Origin: Candidatus Peribacteria bacterium RIFCSPHIGHO2_02_FULL_49_16
GTDB taxonomy: Bacteria > Patescibacteriota > Gracilibacteria > Peribacterales > Peribacteraceae
Assembly: GCA_001788955.1 (NCBI GenBank)
Contig: MFXT01000026.1
Coordinates: forward strand, 65,760-129,759
DNA: 64,000 bases
Direction of reading: 5' to 3'
This document shows positions 53,017 through 60,444 of the stretch, piece by piece. Position 1 is the first letter of the stretch. Each line of letters starts with the position of its first letter. Under the pieces are notes generated by a model that made no database searches, was not told where the DNA came from, and saw only the letters and a program-made list of their open reading frames with translations. The position numbers and the translations under genes were made by a program.

Positions 53017-53049
53017 ATGCGGGAGGATTATTTTCTCCCGCATATTTTT
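53017..53049 (+). terminator. Intrinsic terminator of the small lipoprotein gene
   Basis: 9-bp stem ATGCGGGAG (53017-53025) with CTCCCGCAT (53035-53043), A/T loop, then ATTTTT. It ends 9 nt before the -10 box of idi. Confidence 0.9.
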
Positions 53050-53057
53050 GGATGTGC

Positions 53058-53063
53058 TATACT
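53058..53063 (+). promoter_or_regulatory. Extended -10 promoter of the mevalonate/isoprenoid operon, leaderless
   Basis: TGC-TATACT, 7 nt before the idi ATG at 53071. No -35 box is evident because the terminator occupies that space; the TG extension could compensate. From here to 57305 the genes overlap. Confidence 0.6.
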
Positions 53064-53070
53064 AAAACTT

Positions 53071-53598
53071 ATGCACCGAGACGTGGTCCTCGTTGATCAT
53101 CAAGGAAGCGCAATCGGTGTCATGGAAATTTTTGCCGCCCATGCAGCGCCCGGACATCTGCATCGTGCATTTTCCATCTGTGTGTTTCAAAAGAACAAGC
53201 AAGAGATTCTCATTCAAAAGCGTGCAGATAAAAAACCTCTCTTTTGTTGTCTTTGGAGCAACACATGCTGCAGTCATCCATTTCCCGACGAAGACGTTAT
53301 TCAAGCCGGAGAAAGGCGTTTACAAGAAGAACTCGGGTTCACCTGTCCTCTTCATCAAAAAGGATCATTCGTCTACTACGCAGAGGATCCGAAGAGTGGC
53401 AGAGTGGAATACGAGCATGACACCGTACTTATTGGAGAGGGAACAGGCATCAGAGTCATGCCAAACCCTCAAGAAGTCGAAAACTGCAAATGGGTGCCTA
53501 TTGATAGGCTCCAGAAAGATATTCTGCAGAATCCCAAAAACTACACTCCGTGGTTTGCGAAGGTTTTAAATATAGCTCTACAGTACGCGCATGCCTGA
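53071..53598 (+). CDS. idi: Isopentenyl-diphosphate delta-isomerase, type 1
   Basis: Interconverts IPP and DMAPP. 175-aa Nudix-fold enzyme: LHRAFSICVFQKNKQEILIQKRADKK, the active-site Cys in WSNTCCSHPFPDE, the Nudix-like AGERRLQEELGF and VEYEHDTVLIG with the catalytic Glu. Standard for type I Idi, which needs Mn/Mg and no flavin. First gene of the isoprenoid operon; its end overlaps uppS by 8 nt. The ATG follows the -10 box by 7 nt; an earlier in-frame ATG lies within the terminator hairpin and is rejected. Confidence 0.95.
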   Translation: MHRDVVLVDHQGSAIGVMEIFAAHAAPGHLHRAFSICVFQKNKQEILIQKRADKKPLFCCLWSNTCCSHPFPDEDVIQAGERRLQEELGFTCPLHQKGSFVYYAEDPKSGRVEYEHDTVLIGEGTGIRVMPNPQEVENCKWVPIDRLQKDILQNPKNYTPWFAKVLNIALQYAHA

Positions 53599-54268
53599 CG
53601 AAAAACTGCATCTCGCCATCATTCCCGATGGCAACCGACGCTGGGCCCGCGCACAGGGGTGGCATCCATGGGACGGTCATGCGCAGGCTATGGAAAATTT
53701 TCGCGTTATTTCGGATTGGTGCAGAGAACAGGAAAATATAGAAACACTTACTATCTGGTGCTTCTCTACGGAAAATTGGAAACGTGATCATCAAGAAATC
53801 AATAAACTCATGACTCTTCTCGAAAATTATCTTCAGAAGAACCGTGACGATATGCTCAAAAAACAAACACGCCTTCTGCATTCCGGCAGGAAAGAGCGCA
53901 TTCCTGCATCACTCACTCAAATAATAACGGATATTGAAAAAGAAACTAAACATAATAATAAGTTTACTTTACATCTTGCACTGGATTATGGAGGGAAAGA
54001 CGAGTTATTACGTGCAATTCAGAAAACAAATGACTGCAAAACAATAACTGAAGAGAAGCTTCGCTCCTCCCTTGATCATCCAGAATTATCTGATATCGAC
54101 ATCATCATCCGTACCTCTGGTGAATATCGCACCAGTAATTTTTTTCTCTGGCAAAGCGTGTATGCGGAATGGTTTTTCCTCGAGAAACACTTTCCTGATT
54201 TTGGTATCCCGGATCTTGAGCAGATACTTGACAAGTATCATCAAAGGCGGCGACGATTTGGCGGATGA
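53591..54268 (+). CDS. uppS: cis-Prenyltransferase, undecaprenyl diphosphate synthase type
   Basis: Makes the long-chain polyprenyl diphosphate carrier of wall and glycan synthesis. 225 aa: LAIIPDGNRRWARAQGW holds the catalytic Asp and diphosphate-binding region, TIWCFSTENWKRD the hydrophobic tunnel motif and DIIIRTSGEYRTSNFFLWQSVYAEWFF the C-terminal signature. It is supplied by the IPP/DMAPP made by its operon neighbours, linking the pathway to envelope assembly. Confidence 0.95.
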   Translation: MPDEKLHLAIIPDGNRRWARAQGWHPWDGHAQAMENFRVISDWCREQENIETLTIWCFSTENWKRDHQEINKLMTLLENYLQKNRDDMLKKQTRLLHSGRKERIPASLTQIITDIEKETKHNNKFTLHLALDYGGKDELLRAIQKTNDCKTITEEKLRSSLDHPELSDIDIIIRTSGEYRTSNFFLWQSVYAEWFFLEKHFPDFGIPDLEQILDKYHQRRRRFGG

Positions 54269-55140
54269 ATTCTGTTGGAGTCGCTACCGGAAAAATCATC
54301 CTCTCCGGTGAGTATGCAGTGGTTTTCGGGTATCCCGCAATAGCAATTCCCGCTGAAATTGGAATGCGTGCTGTACGTTCAAAAGAAGTAGTGTGGGAAA
54401 AAGCTCCTACAGAATGGTTCTCTTCCCTCTGCCACATAATTGCTCTCTGCCAAGAACACGGTTCAATAGCATCTGGTGTGACAATTGAAAACCAACTCCC
54501 TCTCGGCTGCGGCATGGGCGCTTCCACTTCCCTCGTCATCGCAGTAACACGCTGTCTCTTTCAAGATTCCCCTCTTCCACACATAAAAAAAATTGCTTCT
54601 TCCATCGAAGACACTCTCAACCCCGGCCACAGTGGCCTGGATTTTGAAGTGATCTGGACCGAAAAACCAATTCTCTTCCAAAAAGGTTCACCACCAAAAT
54701 CTATCAATATATCATTGAATCAATTCATTGATACTTCTCATCATTTTTGTCTTATCGATACCGGAAACCCTGGTGAAACGACACCCGAGCTCGTCTCATG
54801 GGTTCGTTCTCGCATGAGTGATCCCGCTATCTCGGCCGCTCTTCAAACCATCGGCCACTGCACCGAACGACTGTTAAAAGGAGAAGACATCACAGATGTG
54901 TTCAAAGTTCATCACCGCGCACAAATGATTCTTGGCGTCGTTCCGCAAAAGATTCAAAATTTCATCGCAGATATAGAAGAATCCGGCGGCGCTGCGAAAG
55001 TCATTGGTGCGGGAAGTACATCGGGTGGAGGTGGCGTTGTTCTTGCAATAGCCCAGAACACAATTAAAATTGTCTCTTCTTATGATTTCCGTCATCTCCA
55101 CTCCCAACATCGCCTTCACGAAGTACTGGGGAAATCGTAA
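54265..55140 (+). CDS. Mevalonate kinase (GHMP family)
   Basis: Phosphorylates mevalonate at C5. 291 aa: ATGKIILSGEYAVVFGYPAIAIP is the N-terminal mevalonate-kinase signature, LPLGCGMGASTSLVIAV the ATP-binding GHMP motif and KVIGAGSTSGGGGVVLAI the C-terminal motif. NPGHSGLDFEVI takes the place of the usual PSGID motif with the catalytic Asp. The final 59 nt overlap the decarboxylase gene in another frame. Confidence 0.9.
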   Translation: MNSVGVATGKIILSGEYAVVFGYPAIAIPAEIGMRAVRSKEVVWEKAPTEWFSSLCHIIALCQEHGSIASGVTIENQLPLGCGMGASTSLVIAVTRCLFQDSPLPHIKKIASSIEDTLNPGHSGLDFEVIWTEKPILFQKGSPPKSINISLNQFIDTSHHFCLIDTGNPGETTPELVSWVRSRMSDPAISAALQTIGHCTERLLKGEDITDVFKVHHRAQMILGVVPQKIQNFIADIEESGGAAKVIGAGSTSGGGGVVLAIAQNTIKIVSSYDFRHLHSQHRLHEVLGKS

Positions 55141-56164
55141 TGAAAATCTACGCCTTCCGGCAAACGATTCCCTCTCCATGACACTCGATTCACCCACTGT
55201 CAGAATCTCCATCGAACCCGCAGAAACATTCTCTGTACGATCCTGGAACGTCGATGGGTCAGAAAAAACACTTTCTGAAAAAAATATTGCTCGTTTTCAT
55301 TGCCACCGTGAACTTGTAAACCGCTACCTTGCAACTCTTCAGACTGAAGTATCAATTATTCAGCCGTCTCCAAGGCTTTCCAAGAAGAGTCTGCGGGGGG
55401 CAGGGTGGTCGATAAGCAATTATCAATTATCAATTCGATCCCAGATTCCCTCTGCCATTGGTCTTGCTTCCTCCGCCGCCGTCTTTAGTGGTGTTGCAAA
55501 AGCATACGGGGAGCTTCTCCGAAGAGAAGGGCTGGAACTCACTGATGAGCAAATCTCTATTATCGCCCGCCTTGGGTCCGGTTCCGCCTGTCGCAGCATT
55601 CAGGGAGGATTTGTCGCAATAGACGCAGGAATTGGTGACACAATTGACAGCGCAAAAGCAGTGCAGATTGCCGATAATGACCATTGGCCGCTCCACGATA
55701 TTGTCATTGCGCCAAGCCTTGAGGAAAAGAAAGTAGGGTCAACAGAGGGACATCGTTTCGCACACACAAGCCCCTGCTACGCCGAACGCTTGCGCCAAAT
55801 GTCTCGCAGGCAACGAGAATGTATCAATGCCATCCGTACGCGGGATTTTGAAAAGCTCCAGAGAGTCTCTGAAAAAGATGCCCTTGATCTCCATAAAGTC
55901 GCCGAAACCAGCAATCCCCCTCTCCAATACCTGAACCAAGAAACTCATCGCATCATCGGAGAAATCGAAACATTGCGAAAAGAAGAGCATCTCGCCGTCC
56001 TCTTCACCATGGACGCCGGACCTACGGTTCATCTGGTTTGTACCGAAGAGTCCCGCGATCGCATTGCACGGTACGCACACAATCAGCCGCATTGCACGGT
56101 ATTTGAGACAAAGGTGGGAAGTGGTGCACACTGTCAGCATGCATCTACGTCAACTCTCTCCTGA
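55082..56164 (+). CDS. mvaD: Diphosphomevalonate decarboxylase (or phosphomevalonate decarboxylase)
   Basis: 360-aa GHMP-family decarboxylase. STPNIAFTKYWGNRNENLRLPANDSLSMTLD is the family start, IPSAIGLASSAAVFSGVAKAYGELL the ATP motif and LGSGSACRSIQGGF the substrate loop. A microrepeat word (SISNYQLSIRS, from 55417-55435) is inserted just before the ATP motif. Since no phosphomevalonate kinase is present, the substrate could be mevalonate 5-phosphate with an isopentenyl phosphate kinase elsewhere, as reported for Chloroflexi and haloarchaea. Overlaps both neighbours. Confidence 0.9.
   Translation: MISVISTPNIAFTKYWGNRNENLRLPANDSLSMTLDSPTVRISIEPAETFSVRSWNVDGSEKTLSEKNIARFHCHRELVNRYLATLQTEVSIIQPSPRLSKKSLRGAGWSISNYQLSIRSQIPSAIGLASSAAVFSGVAKAYGELLRREGLELTDEQISIIARLGSGSACRSIQGGFVAIDAGIGDTIDSAKAVQIADNDHWPLHDIVIAPSLEEKKVGSTEGHRFAHTSPCYAERLRQMSRRQRECINAIRTRDFEKLQRVSEKDALDLHKVAETSNPPLQYLNQETHRIIGEIETLRKEEHLAVLFTMDAGPTVHLVCTEESRDRIARYAHNQPHCTVFETKVGSGAHCQHASTSTLS
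55417..55435 (+). repeat. Tandem microrepeat inside mvaD
   Basis: CAATTATCAATTATCAATT: two and a half 7-nt units, read as NYQLS in the protein. Confidence 0.75.
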
Positions 56165-57305
56165 AGAACGACGAAAATATCTGGAAAAAGAATTGTGCGC
56201 AGATCTTTCGGCAGTATCTATTGATCCCATGAAGCTCGGTGATGCCGATCAAAAAAACTGCGAACAGATGTTCGGTCATGTGCCAATTCCCATCGGATAT
56301 GCCGGGCCGCTTCCTGTCACATTGAGTTCAGGAGAATGCATTGAAGCACATTTGCCACTGGCAACAACGGAAGGGGCACTCATTGCAAGTATTAATAGGG
56401 GTTGCAAGGCAGTACGTCTTTCTGGAGCAGTGAAAACGGAAGCGAAGTATCATGGAATAACAAGATCCATTGCAATGAAAATAAGAAATCAGACATTAGA
56501 AAGCAGAAACACATCTGAAATGAAAACAGTAGAAATACAAAAACACGCAAACGAGTGGCAGGGTGTAGGGGAAGCGACGAGTAGTCATCTGAAGATTGTG
56601 AAGTACGATATTGATACGCATGAGGATCTGCTTTTTCTCACCATCTATGCCGATACGGACGAAGCGATGGGCATGAACATGGTTACGATTGCGGCGGAGG
56701 CGATTGGCAAATGGATGGAGGAACATTTTGATCTGCAATTCATCACTGTCGCCGGAAACGTGGATAGCGATAAGAAGCCGAGTGTGCGAACACGGGATAG
56801 AGGACGTGGATATGAAGTTACCGCCACAGCGACTATTTCCGAAGCAATTATTCGATCTGTACTCAAGACCACGCCAGAAGTACTTTTGGAAGTTGCGCAT
56901 GCAAAACTGGAAGTAGGATCAGAAATCGCCGGAGCTCTCGGAAAAAACTGCCACGCCGCCAATATCATCGCCGCTCTATATCTTGCAACAGGACAGGACA
57001 TCGCACATGTAGTTGAAGGCTCTTTGACAAACACAATTTTCAGTCTTCACTCTTCATCTGTCAGCATAGCAGTACGCATTCCGGCACTGCTCGTCGGCAT
57101 TCGTGGCGGCGGTACAGGACTCCCCGCCCAATCTCAAGCACTCCGTCTCCTCCTTTCTTCTCTATCCTATAATCTATCACCTGCAAAACGTCTCGCCGAA
57201 ATCATCGGCGCGGCGGTCCTCGCCGGTGAACTTTCATTGCTAGCCGCTCAAGCAAGCCATACATTGGCCCGATCCCATCAAGATCTCGCACGTACTCGTA
57301 TCTAA
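56139..57305 (+). CDS. HMG-CoA reductase, class I (archaeal-like)
   Basis: Rate-limiting reduction of HMG-CoA to mevalonate with NADPH. 388 aa: HVPIPIGYAGPLPVTL, the active-site ATTEGALIASINRGCKA (Glu), MGMNMVTIA, GNVDSDKKPS (catalytic Lys), GKNCHAANIIAALYLATGQD and a C-terminal ASHTLARSHQD with the catalytic His. No membrane domain. The class I type is typical of archaea and eukaryotes. A microrepeat word (SSLSYNLSPAK) sits before the last domain. The ATG at 56139 overlaps mvaD by 26 nt; longer frames are unlikely. Confidence 0.95.
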   Translation: MHLRQLSPEERRKYLEKELCADLSAVSIDPMKLGDADQKNCEQMFGHVPIPIGYAGPLPVTLSSGECIEAHLPLATTEGALIASINRGCKAVRLSGAVKTEAKYHGITRSIAMKIRNQTLESRNTSEMKTVEIQKHANEWQGVGEATSSHLKIVKYDIDTHEDLLFLTIYADTDEAMGMNMVTIAAEAIGKWMEEHFDLQFITVAGNVDSDKKPSVRTRDRGRGYEVTATATISEAIIRSVLKTTPEVLLEVAHAKLEVGSEIAGALGKNCHAANIIAALYLATGQDIAHVVEGSLTNTIFSLHSSSVSIAVRIPALLVGIRGGGTGLPAQSQALRLLLSSLSYNLSPAKRLAEIIGAAVLAGELSLLAAQASHTLARSHQDLARTRI

Positions 57306-57320: not shown

Positions 57321-58355
57321 ATGCCTGCCAAAACACATTCAGCGATTATTGGATTCGGCCAGTATCTCCCCAAATATCGTATAAAAACCAAAGACATCGC
57401 TCTACATTGGCAACAGGATCCAAAACACATCGTAGAATCTCTTGGCATACACGAAAAAACTGTACCGGCAGATCATGAAGACAGTTTCACATTTGCTTTT
57501 GAAGCAGCGAAGCAAGCTATCGAGATCGCCGATATTTCTTCATCAGATATTTCCGCGTGTTTTGTGGGATCGGAAAGTCATCCGTATGCTGTGAAACCAA
57601 CGAGCGGGATGCTTGTTTCTGCTCTTGAGCTCCATCCCTTCTCTCATGCAGCCGATTTGGAATTCGCCTGCAAAGCGGGAACGGCTGCGATGCAGATCGT
57701 GGACAGTTTCGTGCGAAGCAAACAAATTGAATATGGACTCGCAATCGGCACCGATCGTGCGCAAGCAAAGCCGGGTGATGTACTGGAATACTCCGCCGCC
57801 GCCGGTGCTGCAGCCATCGTCCTTGGAGCCGAAAAACATAAGAAAGCTCTCTGTCGTATCGATCACACACTCTCTTTTACAACAGATACTCCGGACTTCT
57901 GGCGCAATGAAGGATCACCCCACCCCCAACATGCCGGCCGTTTTACCGGAGAACCCGGATATTTTGCTCATGTGCGCGAGACTATCAAAGGCATGCTTAC
58001 AACACACACTATGCAGCTTGCCGCTATCGATCACGTCATTCTTCACATGCCCAACACCAAATTCCCCATGAAGATCGTAAAAGAATTCGGACTCACAGAG
58101 AAACAAATCGAACATGGTTTCATTGTCCCCGCTATCGGCAATACGTACAGCGCTTGTTCGCTCCTCGGACTCGTACATGTGCTGCAAAAGGCAAAGAAAA
58201 ATGAGACGATCCTCCTTGTCTCCTATGGATCCGGCGCCGGATCGGATGCTTTTCTTATGACTATGGTCCGTGATGGATTGAAATTACCGGGAGAAGAACG
58301 TCAACCGGAATATGTCTCGTACAGTCAATATGCAAAAATGACAAACATCTATTAA
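57321..58355 (+). CDS. HMG-CoA synthase (archaeal type)
   Basis: Condenses acetoacetyl-CoA with acetyl-CoA. 344-aa thiolase-fold enzyme: IIGFGQYLPKYRIKTKDIALHW, the active-site Cys117 in ADLEFACKAGTAAMQ, GTDRAQAKPGDVLEYSAAAGAAA, and a C-terminal NTYSACSLLGLVHVL plus SYGSGAGSDAFLM region. It is shorter than eukaryotic or Gram-positive forms and matches the archaeal type that works in a complex with thiolase and a DUF35 protein; both are encoded directly downstream. Confidence 0.94.
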   Translation: MPAKTHSAIIGFGQYLPKYRIKTKDIALHWQQDPKHIVESLGIHEKTVPADHEDSFTFAFEAAKQAIEIADISSSDISACFVGSESHPYAVKPTSGMLVSALELHPFSHAADLEFACKAGTAAMQIVDSFVRSKQIEYGLAIGTDRAQAKPGDVLEYSAAAGAAAIVLGAEKHKKALCRIDHTLSFTTDTPDFWRNEGSPHPQHAGRFTGEPGYFAHVRETIKGMLTTHTMQLAAIDHVILHMPNTKFPMKIVKEFGLTEKQIEHGFIVPAIGNTYSACSLLGLVHVLQKAKKNETILLVSYGSGAGSDAFLMTMVRDGLKLPGEERQPEYVSYSQYAKMTNIY

Positions 58356-58371
58356 AATCCCCATCACCCGT

Positions 58372-59514
58372 ATGCAAAGAGACATTTTCCTCATCGGTTC
58401 CGGTCAAACACGCTTTGGTGAATGGTGGGATAAAAGTTTGCGTTCTCTTGCAGAGGAGGCCGTAAACATCGCATTGAAGAATGCACCATGTACGGCACTC
58501 GACATCGACATGGTGATCGTGGCAAATATGCTCGGGGAAGTTATAAATAATCAAGCCCATCTCGGCGCACTCGTCTCCAATTTCCTCCCCCATACACCAC
58601 CCGCATTGCGTGTCGAAGCAGCCTGTGCATCCGGTTCTATTGCCATTCATACCGCATGCGCGCTTCTCGAAAGCGGACGCGCGGATACGATCCTCATCGT
58701 TGGAGCAGAAAAAATGACCGACATCAATGCCGAAATCATTTCTCAAGCCCTCATGAGCGCGGCAGATAGTGAACAGGATCAACCCTGCGGTCTGACATTC
58801 CCGGGAATATTCGGTCTCATCGCAAAACGTTACATGCATGAATATGGCCTCACGCGCAAAGAGCTGAATGCCGTAAGTTTCATGCATCACCACTACTCTG
58901 CAAAAAATCCCCACGCCCAATTTCAAAATGCCATATCACCGGAAGAAGTTGAAAAAAGTCCGCTGATTGCCGACCCTCTCCATATGCTCGACTGTTCACC
59001 GGTCAGTGACGGCGCAGCCGCGTGTATTTTGAGCACAAAAAAGAAAAGTTCGTATCGCATTGCCGCATCAAAACTCGCGAATGACACAGTAAGTATCACT
59101 GATCGCGTGTCTCTCACCAGTTTCTCTGCAACACAAAAAGCGGCAAAAAACGCATATGAAGAAGCAGGAATTACTATAAAAAATATTTCGTGCATCGAAC
59201 ATCACGACTGTTTTTCCATTGCCGCAATCATCAACCTTGAGGATCTCGGATTTGCAGAAAAAGGCAAAGGCATCGAATGGTATACAAAACCCATCACCTC
59301 TTCCCTGTCATCTGTCACCTCCATTAATGCGAGCGGCGGCCTCAAAGCCTGCGGCCATCCCGTCGGAGCAACAGGTGTAAAACAACTCATAGAAATCGGA
59401 AAACAATTAGAAAGCACGAATACCCGCTACGGACTCGCACACAACTTTGGCGGCGCCTGTGCCACATGCTGCGTGCATATTTTAGAAAATATTTCCGCTC
59501 CATCTATAACCTAA
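58372..59514 (+). CDS. Acetyl-CoA C-acetyltransferase, archaeal SCP-x-like thiolase
   Basis: Makes acetoacetyl-CoA from two acetyl-CoA. 380 aa: VEAACASGSIAIHTA with nucleophile Cys85, IEHHDCFSI with a catalytic His, and NASGGLKACGHPVGATGVKQL with the second His/Cys motif. The archaeal thiolase type binds HMG-CoA synthase through a DUF35 scaffold; the next gene codes for that domain. A microrepeat word (TSSLSSVTSIN) precedes the NASGG motif. The stop TAA abuts the next ATG. Confidence 0.93.
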   Translation: MQRDIFLIGSGQTRFGEWWDKSLRSLAEEAVNIALKNAPCTALDIDMVIVANMLGEVINNQAHLGALVSNFLPHTPPALRVEAACASGSIAIHTACALLESGRADTILIVGAEKMTDINAEIISQALMSAADSEQDQPCGLTFPGIFGLIAKRYMHEYGLTRKELNAVSFMHHHYSAKNPHAQFQNAISPEEVEKSPLIADPLHMLDCSPVSDGAAACILSTKKKSSYRIAASKLANDTVSITDRVSLTSFSATQKAAKNAYEEAGITIKNISCIEHHDCFSIAAIINLEDLGFAEKGKGIEWYTKPITSSLSSVTSINASGGLKACGHPVGATGVKQLIEIGKQLESTNTRYGLAHNFGGACATCCVHILENISAPSIT

Positions 59515-60444
59515 ATGTTCTCTCCTCCCTCCATTCATCGCGCCATCAAAACTCGTAATAGAAAACTTCAATCCGGAACGATCATTTCCATAACCACAAT
59601 CGCCCACCCACCTCATCCTTTCCCAAAAAAACCACGCACCATCGCCCTCATCGAATTAGAAGACGGCTCTCGAGTTCTCGGCCAGCTTGCCACTTGCTAC
59701 CCTGCCGGTCATTGCCTTTTTATCGGCTACCGCGTCCTTCCCCGTATGATCCTCTCTCATGTCACTCCTCAAGGTCTGCGCGTCTATGAAATCGCCTACG
59801 AACTCGCTGTGGAAAAACACGCAGAAACATTCGACGAAAGTGTCTTCCCCCGCTATATCCTGGCCATTACCGGTCCCTCGGGCGTTGGTAAATCCACTGT
59901 CAGCACACTCCTTGAAAAAGTCTGCAGCCGCTCGATGCAACGCGTACCCATTCTCACGACACGTGAACCGAAACACGGAGATGATGGTGAATATTATTAT
60001 GTTTCCAACAAAGAATTTATGTTGCTCGGCAAACAAGGAAAGCTCGCAACCTGCGCCAAAATCCTCTCAAAAAACGAAGACCGCCATTACGGATACCGAA
60101 GAAGTGACATCGAAGCAATCTGGAAAAATGGCCGCATTCCCGTCGTCGTCACCGAAATGCACCTTCTTGAAGGGCTTGCGAAGAGTTTCGGTCGCCGAGC
60201 GATCCTCTCCTTTGGCCTTCTCCCCCCCGGAAAAAGCCGTCGCGCCATGTTGAGCAATCTCCTCTTTCGACTCCGCAAACGTGGCCGTGAGACCGATATT
60301 CAAATCCACGAACGGCTGAAAAATGCCGTCAAAGAGCTCAAATTCTTCAAAGAACGCGCCGAACTCTTCGATCATATTCTCGTCAATGAGGACATAGATA
60401 TACTGCACAAGAAGATTGCATTCTTTGCTAGACGCAATGCCTAA
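59515..60444 (+). CDS. DUF35 OB-fold domain fused to a guanylate-kinase-like P-loop domain
   Basis: 309-aa protein with two parts. Residues 18-95 match the DUF35 OB fold (GTIISITTIAHPPHPFP, IALIELEDGSRVLGQL), the scaffold joining archaeal thiolase and HMG-CoA synthase; the zinc-ribbon half of DUF35 is missing. Residues 113-309 follow guanylate kinase: P-loop GPSGVGKS (120-127), TTREP (Arg150), EYYYVSNKEF, HYGYRRSDIE and ILVNEDID. By hand alignment to yeast Gmk, GMP-contacting Ser34, Arg41 and Glu69 are replaced (Ile, Lys, Thr) while Tyr50 and Tyr78 remain. It may phosphorylate another substrate, perhaps phosphomevalonate. Confidence 0.85.
   Translation: MFSPPSIHRAIKTRNRKLQSGTIISITTIAHPPHPFPKKPRTIALIELEDGSRVLGQLATCYPAGHCLFIGYRVLPRMILSHVTPQGLRVYEIAYELAVEKHAETFDESVFPRYILAITGPSGVGKSTVSTLLEKVCSRSMQRVPILTTREPKHGDDGEYYYVSNKEFMLLGKQGKLATCAKILSKNEDRHYGYRRSDIEAIWKNGRIPVVVTEMHLLEGLAKSFGRRAILSFGLLPPGKSRRAMLSNLLFRLRKRGRETDIQIHERLKNAVKELKFFKERAELFDHILVNEDIDILHKKIAFFARRNA

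Follow-up and report, generated by a model that had tools for sequence, protein, structure and literature searches.

A DUF35/guanylate-kinase-fold fusion protein as a proposed phosphomevalonate kinase of Candidatus Peribacteraceae

How do members of the family Candidatus Peribacteraceae, to which the source organism belongs, convert mevalonate 5-phosphate into mevalonate 5-diphosphate? Peribacteria are very small bacteria that have not been cultured. An analysis of five of their genomes in 2016 reported the genes leading to mevalonate-5P and those starting from mevalonate-5PP, and called the pathway "near-complete" (PMC4736985). The gap in that published pathway is exactly the phosphomevalonate kinase (PMK) step. 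In the window, by which we mean the whole 64,000-nucleotide stretch of DNA analysed, the genes of a mevalonate operon follow each other in the order isopentenyl-diphosphate delta-isomerase (IDI), undecaprenyl/polyprenyl diphosphate synthase (UPPS), mevalonate kinase (MVK), (di)phosphomevalonate decarboxylase (MVD), HMG-CoA reductase (HMGR), HMG-CoA synthase (HMGS), thiolase and a fusion of a DUF35 domain with a P-loop kinase domain (Table 1). We conclude that the fused kinase domain is most probably a PMK derived from guanylate kinase (Gmk) and tethered to the HMG-CoA-forming complex. The genome evidence for this reading is strong, and the original prediction, which had raised it from the letters of the window, is well supported by comparison among sequences. 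Mevalonate-pathway kinases are a known kind of enzyme; what would be new is the fold employed here and its covalent attachment to the HMG-CoA scaffold, and a literature search, with most subscription journals outside it, found no paper linking DUF35 to a PMK of guanylate-kinase type.

Table 1. The mevalonate operon of the window and the parts of its terminal fusion gene (positions in the window; residues numbered along the fusion protein).
Feature	Positions	Strand	Evidence and remarks
Isopentenyl-diphosphate delta-isomerase (type I, Nudix)	53017..53598	+	NF002995 153 bits (cut-off 127); TIGR02150 113 (105.8)
Undecaprenyl/polyprenyl diphosphate synthase	53591..54268	+	TIGR00055 198 bits, cut-off 109.6
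Mevalonate kinase, short divergent GHMP kinase, GEYAVV motif	54265..55140	+	TIGR00549 96 bits, under cut-off
(Di)phosphomevalonate decarboxylase	55070..56164	+	TIGR01240 199 bits, cut-off 171; Y18 N21 R27 type; mechanical ORF limits, likely ATG start near 55082
HMG-CoA reductase	56064..57305	+	PF00368 305 bits; mechanical ORF limits, likely start near 56139
Archaeal-type HMG-CoA synthase	57321..58355	+	TIGR00748 367 bits, cut-off 353
Archaeal-type acetoacetyl-CoA thiolase	58372..59514	+	Top PDB match 6esq_A, E 1e-78
DUF35/guanylate-kinase-fold fusion, proposed PMK	59515..60444	+	309 aa, ATG start
OB-fold DUF35 domain, residues 18-97, without zinc ribbon	59566..59805	+	PF01796 over cut-off
Guanylate-kinase-fold kinase domain, residues 113-309	59851..60441	+	PF00625; Foldseek 1gky
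P-loop GPSGVGKST, residues 120-128	59872..59898	+	K126 in 55/55 intact homologues; R in G044, G063
Acceptor-phosphate site part 1, R150 (Gmk R38) to Y160 (Gmk Y50)	59962..59994	+	Alignments
Family-specific insertion SxxExR190 and Y192 (Gmk Y78)	60067..60090	+	Insertion missing from Gmks
LID with insertion G(K/R)S(K/R)R and R252, R254, R256, R258	60229..60288	+	

The thiolase gene, stop included, ends at 59514, and the fusion reading frame opens on the very next base. Both domains that had been read into this one frame directly behind the thiolase gene score above their curated Pfam cut-offs: residues 20-74 match OB_ChsH2_C (PF01796) with 32 bits (cut-off 27.1), and residues 116-302 match Guanylate_kin (PF00625) with 49.5 bits (cut-off 25.2). 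The N-terminal half is homologous to standalone DUF35 proteins of other Patescibacteria (hhalign E 3e-13), and its DUF35 domain matches the DUF35 of 6ok1 at E 9e-5. No paired CxxC motifs of a zinc ribbon were found at the N terminus, where the structural model has a helix (residues 4-17) and then OB strands. This AlphaFold2 model of the protein alone, a prediction that had been recommended with the first reading of the locus, was built from an alignment in which the window protein stood with three homologous fusions and 31 guanylate kinases. In it the N-terminal helix is followed by an OB barrel and, beyond a linker of low confidence (101-110), by a Gmk-type alpha/beta domain (mean pLDDT 86, pTM 0.67). 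Foldseek ranks 1gky, the GMP-bound yeast guanylate kinase, first for this model (TM-score 0.89 on the target). The modelled fold of the kinase domain is of the guanylate-kinase type, neither the GHMP kinase fold nor the amino-acid-kinase fold.

In archaea, DUF35 holds thiolase and HMG-CoA synthase together. The Peribacteraceae locus resembles that thiolase/HMGS/DUF35 complex (6esq) in its OB domain, in its gene order and in partner enzymes that are closest to 6esq chains, HMGS having 6esq_I as its top PDB match (E 5.5e-98). Unlike the 6esq DUF35, the fusion lacks a zinc ribbon and carries a kinase domain, and the direct match between the two DUF35 chains is weak (E 0.22). In the mechanism that we propose, the N-terminal OB domain would serve as a DUF35 scaffold linking acetoacetyl-CoA thiolase and HMGS. 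The C-terminal domain, a guanylate kinase that would no longer read guanine, would use ATP to convert mevalonate 5-phosphate into mevalonate 5-diphosphate and so fill the missing PMK step.

Such an enzyme would have counterparts of two kinds. Animal PMK (PF04275) is a P-loop NMP-kinase-like enzyme and not of the GHMP fold; the fused kinase is likewise of a P-loop NMP-kinase-like fold and would catalyse the same reaction. Unlike animal PMK, it appears to derive from guanylate kinase, and PF04275 was absent among the Pfam hits of the fusion at E up to 1. With the GHMP-family PMKs (TIGR01220, archaeal PMK, Patescibacteria PMK) the fused kinase would share the reaction and the operon role, whereas the folds are unrelated and the Patescibacteria GHMP PMK appears to displace the fused kinase in some lineages.

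The active site was compared with those of yeast Gmk and 31 bacterial Gmks, and conservation was counted over the full fusions. The fused domain shares with guanylate kinase (EC 2.7.4.8; PF00625, 1gky) its fold, its P-loop, LID arginines and the residues R38, Y50 and Y78, which, with R41, hold the acceptor phosphate in the yeast enzyme. These are retained in the fusion as R150, Y160 and Y192, and R41 is conservatively replaced by K153. Guanine is read in yeast Gmk by Ser34, Glu69, Ser80 and Asp100. Unlike in guanylate kinase, these positions are replaced in the fusion: S34 by I146, S80 by Y194 and D100 by E214, three changes that are almost invariant among family members. The E69 position is T179 in the window protein and variable across the family. 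The hand alignment behind the original prediction had paired Ser34 with Ile146, Arg41 with Lys153 and Glu69 with Thr179, all correctly; the retained pairs Arg38-Arg150, Tyr50-Tyr160 and Tyr78-Tyr192 were missing from it. As the phosphate-site residues are kept and the guanine-reading positions changed, the acceptor is probably a phosphomonoester other than GMP.

A guanylate kinase fold and P-loop could also mark the protein as a second guanylate kinase, and we consider this extremely improbable given the replaced guanine-reading residues. Additionally, the fusion reaches only 80 bits on the equivalog model TIGR03263, below the cut-off of 160.45 (the window genome's own gmk gives 135.5 bits on a matched stretch of 187 aa), and, with the exception of G013, only genomes that have the mevalonate operon carry the fused kinase. 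The separate gmk, a canonical gene elsewhere in the window genome with equivalents of Ser34, Glu69 and Asp100, rules out that the fused domain is simply the genome's guanylate kinase, a possibility that the original prediction had held against itself.

Beyond the attached DUF35 domain, two insertions, one ahead of the YG motif and the other within the LID, further set the fusion apart from guanylate kinase. The first brings R190, and with the second the LID gains R254 and R258 relative to Gmks; R190 and R258 have no counterpart in Gmk. R190 and Y192 are each present in 55/55 intact homologues, as are Y160 (in 0/8 degenerate ones) and R258 (in 1/8). Absent from Gmk, invariant and tracking activity, R190 and R258 suggest a second anionic group on the acceptor. 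They could bind a carboxylate, a group that isopentenyl phosphate does not have.

The enzymes that could otherwise supply this part of the pathway were sought across the genomes. The operon had been described as holding MVK and MVD genes without a GHMP PMK, and neither PF00288 nor TIGR01220 revealed a GHMP PMK anywhere in the window genome, PF00288 matching only the operon's MVK and MVD. No classical isopentenyl phosphate kinase (IPK) scored over the NF040647 cut-off in 74 family genomes. The only amino-acid-kinase (PF00696) match found in the window genome as a possible IPK is the UMP kinase PyrH. IspH was found in none of the 74 Peribacteraceae genomes, which rules out the MEP pathway as the actual isoprenoid route. 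A check of the whole genome for gmk, a GHMP PMK and an IPK had been proposed at the outset, and it returned a normal gmk and neither of the two kinases.

The fusion is widespread in the family. Full fusions, 42-71% identical, occur in 63 of 74 Peribacteraceae genomes, which bears out the earlier proposal to look for it in relatives and excludes chance or assembly error; one genome (G013) has the kinase half only, and the remaining ten are without any fusion. HMGR is present in 62 of the 74 genomes, all 62 of which have the fusion, and is absent from all ten without it. Among 380 genomes drawn from the phylum, only Peribacteraceae had the fusion in full, and a contig scan for the fusion kinase returned mostly ordinary gmk genes along with three Peribacteria-type fusions. 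HMGR also occurs outside the family, in G115.

Fusion-less Peribacteraceae genomes (for example G018, G029, G030 and G040) have neither HMGR nor IspH, and are thus seemingly without their own route to isoprenoid precursors. The lone kinase half (G013:C1:19539-20090; L087:2998-3756, minus strand) has no DUF35 and lies inside a ribosomal-protein gene cluster, on the opposite strand, in a genome without HMGR and without GHMP kinase genes. Its R228, R243 and R254 are changed, and it keeps most acceptor-site residues, a point that counts against a role in phosphomevalonate phosphorylation.

The main alternative is that the kinase acts after decarboxylation, as an IPK with a fold new for that activity. 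Mevalonate 5-phosphate would be turned into isopentenyl phosphate by the decarboxylase of the operon, and the fused kinase would then yield IPP. We regard this as unlikely, and the type of decarboxylase bears on it in both directions. The usual Peribacteraceae decarboxylase has Y18, N21 and R27 in 48/48 readable cases, and the window enzyme has as its top PDB match the A. thermophila enzyme 6n0x, with which the main-lineage decarboxylase shares N21, R27 and H196; a PDB variant, 6n0z, differs from 6n0x at N21K and H196M. We take 6n0x to accept both mono- and diphosphate substrates and the A. thermophila decarboxylase to pair with an IPK. All six checked positions are common to 6n0x and the usual family decarboxylase (window 55070-56164 and homologues), yet, unlike in A. 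thermophila, no classical IPK was found alongside the latter in the family genomes. R27 is listed as an MPD-like feature (eLife 2013 Table 4, PMC3857490). Because the main decarboxylase type matches a dual-specificity enzyme, the main lineage alone cannot separate PMK from IPK; an IPK role fits this lineage, where the acceptor would still be a phosphomonoester, and to that extent the decarboxylase counts against our assignment.

Two genomes with another decarboxylase, G023 and G050, argue for a PMK, indirectly, through the residue signature of that enzyme. Their enzymes carry Y18, K21, S139, S141 and S192, the canonical diphosphate signature (eLife 2013 Table 4, PMC3857490), their fused kinases are intact, and neither a third GHMP kinase nor an IPK match was found in them (completeness is 97% for G023 and 88% for G050, so that the negative for G050 is weaker). 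With a decarboxylase of the diphospho signature, no GHMP PMK found and an intact fusion, something in these genomes must make the diphosphate, and an IPK would leave them without it. The invariant R190 and R258, if they do hold a second anionic group, likewise speak against isopentenyl phosphate as the acceptor.

A further line of evidence comes from genomes that have acquired another kinase. A third GHMP kinase is present in G006, G019, G021, G025, G026, G044, G046, G049 and G063, along with a decarboxylase of another kind that replaces the usual one; in those loci that were read, both genes adjoin each other on the strand opposite the operon. The fused kinase has decayed in eight of these nine genomes, the exception being G026. 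The losses comprise Y160 (8/8), R258 (7/8), Y192 (7/8), R190 (6/8) and R267 (6/8), all lost in 0/55 other full fusions, and P-loop K126 is replaced in 2/8. Decay and the gained GHMP kinase are associated at p = 2.3e-9 by Fisher's exact test with relatedness ignored. The decayed genomes fall in five places on a thiolase+HMGS+HMGR tree, and decay requires at least four changes on the operon tree if reversal is allowed and five if it is irreversible; an independent-pairs test gave 4 to 0 with one tie (p 0.125), too few pairs for significance. Measured against the same neighbour genes, the summed tip branches of the kinase domain come to 1.52 in decayed versus 0.89 in intact lineages, with tip ratios faster in the decayed ones (one-sided Mann-Whitney p 0.015), and those of the OB domain are 1.57 in decayed and intact lineages alike. 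If the gained enzyme is a GHMP PMK, the coincidence of its arrival with the decay of the fused kinase implies that the fused kinase did the PMK job.

By score, the gained kinase would be a mevalonate kinase: it reaches 194-210 bits on the model TIGR00549, over the cut-off, and has the GEH motif, which counts against our reading. The context of related genes in other Patescibacteria overturns that label. There, gained-type kinases 46-61% identical to those of the family stand in operons of the order HMGR, HMGS, thiolase, small ORF, MVK, gained-type kinase, MVD (G399, G355, G382, G414, G374 and G345, from four families), and G328 has the order MVK, gained-type kinase, decarboxylase; some of the Patescibacteria genomes with such an operon are single-contig assemblies. 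As these operons have a separate MVK, the gained-type kinase is left with the PMK role, and on this operon context the gained GHMP kinase of the Peribacteraceae is probably a GHMP PMK. The Patescibacteria kinases concerned (L249:9205-10293, L253:8654-9697, L255:8463-9392 and relatives) pass TIGR00549 and sit between a true MVK and the decarboxylase; they are probably PMKs misnamed by current models. The small ORF in the loci read encodes a DUF35-like protein that lacks a zinc ribbon and is a homologue of the fusion's N-terminal half; in L249, L253, L254, L255 and L256 it is a standalone DUF35 of about 95-100 aa between thiolase and MVK.

The same scores permit a reversed assignment, in which the fused kinase acts as the MVK, the PMK is the operon's short GHMP kinase, and the gained enzyme is an ordinary MVK. 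In known mevalonate kinases the conserved GEH histidine shapes the mevalonate site. The operon MVK (54265-55140) and the examined Peribacteraceae homologues have GEYAVV at that position, and this divergence, with a score below the model cut-off, favours the reversal and weighs against our own. We nevertheless find the reversal very improbable. The top PDB matches of the short kinase are the mevalonate kinases 2x7i and 2oi2, it matches PMK models hardly at all, and in a tree it clusters with the MVKs of other Patescibacteria (support 98), the gained kinase grouping with the third type of GHMP kinase present there. The MVK adjoining the gained-type kinase and decarboxylase in other Patescibacteria is itself a GEH enzyme. 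Additionally, the fused domain keeps the acceptor-phosphate site of Gmk, and mevalonate has no phosphate.

The decayed copies have not been discarded. The fusions of loci G044, G063, G019, G046, G049 and G025 are full length, with dN/dS of 0.06-0.11 within pairs, a low value that counts against our reading and indicates some further role for the kinase domain, suggesting that the decayed kinases are pseudoenzymes retained for a structural role. R227, R243 and W203 are invariant in the decayed copies and R228 is kept in 7/8; R228 and R243 are among the residues changed in the G013 kinase, which has lost DUF35. R227, R228, R243 and W203 may face the scaffold or its partners.

Such purifying selection and invariant residues would also be expected if the domain, instead of being a pathway enzyme, bound nucleotides to regulate the thiolase/HMGS complex or were a structural component of it, with the PMK step carried out by a promiscuous or unrecognised enzyme. 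A regulator was the second option offered by the original prediction, and for the intact forms it does not hold up well: catalytic and acceptor sites and LID arginines are invariant in all 55 and lost specifically where a GHMP PMK arrived, so that we consider this option quite improbable. G026, which combines the gained GHMP kinase with an intact fusion, is a counter-example to simple displacement. Its close relatives G050 and G057 are without the gained kinase, and its arrival in G026 may therefore be recent.

Taken as a history, it is reasonably probable that a third independent PMK arose from guanylate kinase and was covalently tethered to the HMG-CoA scaffold, coupling the fifth step of the pathway to the first two, and that in several lineages it was displaced by an acquired GHMP PMK and persisted as a pseudoenzyme kept as scaffold. 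If so, the mevalonate pathway published for Peribacteria would no longer have a gap, in organisms where no other known isoprenoid route is apparent. Phosphomevalonate phosphorylation would then also have drawn on an NMP-kinase-type fold for a second time, separately from animals, and a late step of the pathway would be joined to the complex that starts it, which is rare. One and the same enzyme occurs here in intact form, in decayed form and, in G026, in a form only recently made redundant; with the unlabelled Patescibacteria GHMP PMK that current models call mevalonate kinase, these versions make up a testable set.

In one assembly, G064, the MVK-MVD-HMGR segment of the operon occurs twice (G064:C47 and G064:C32), possibly reflecting mixed strains.
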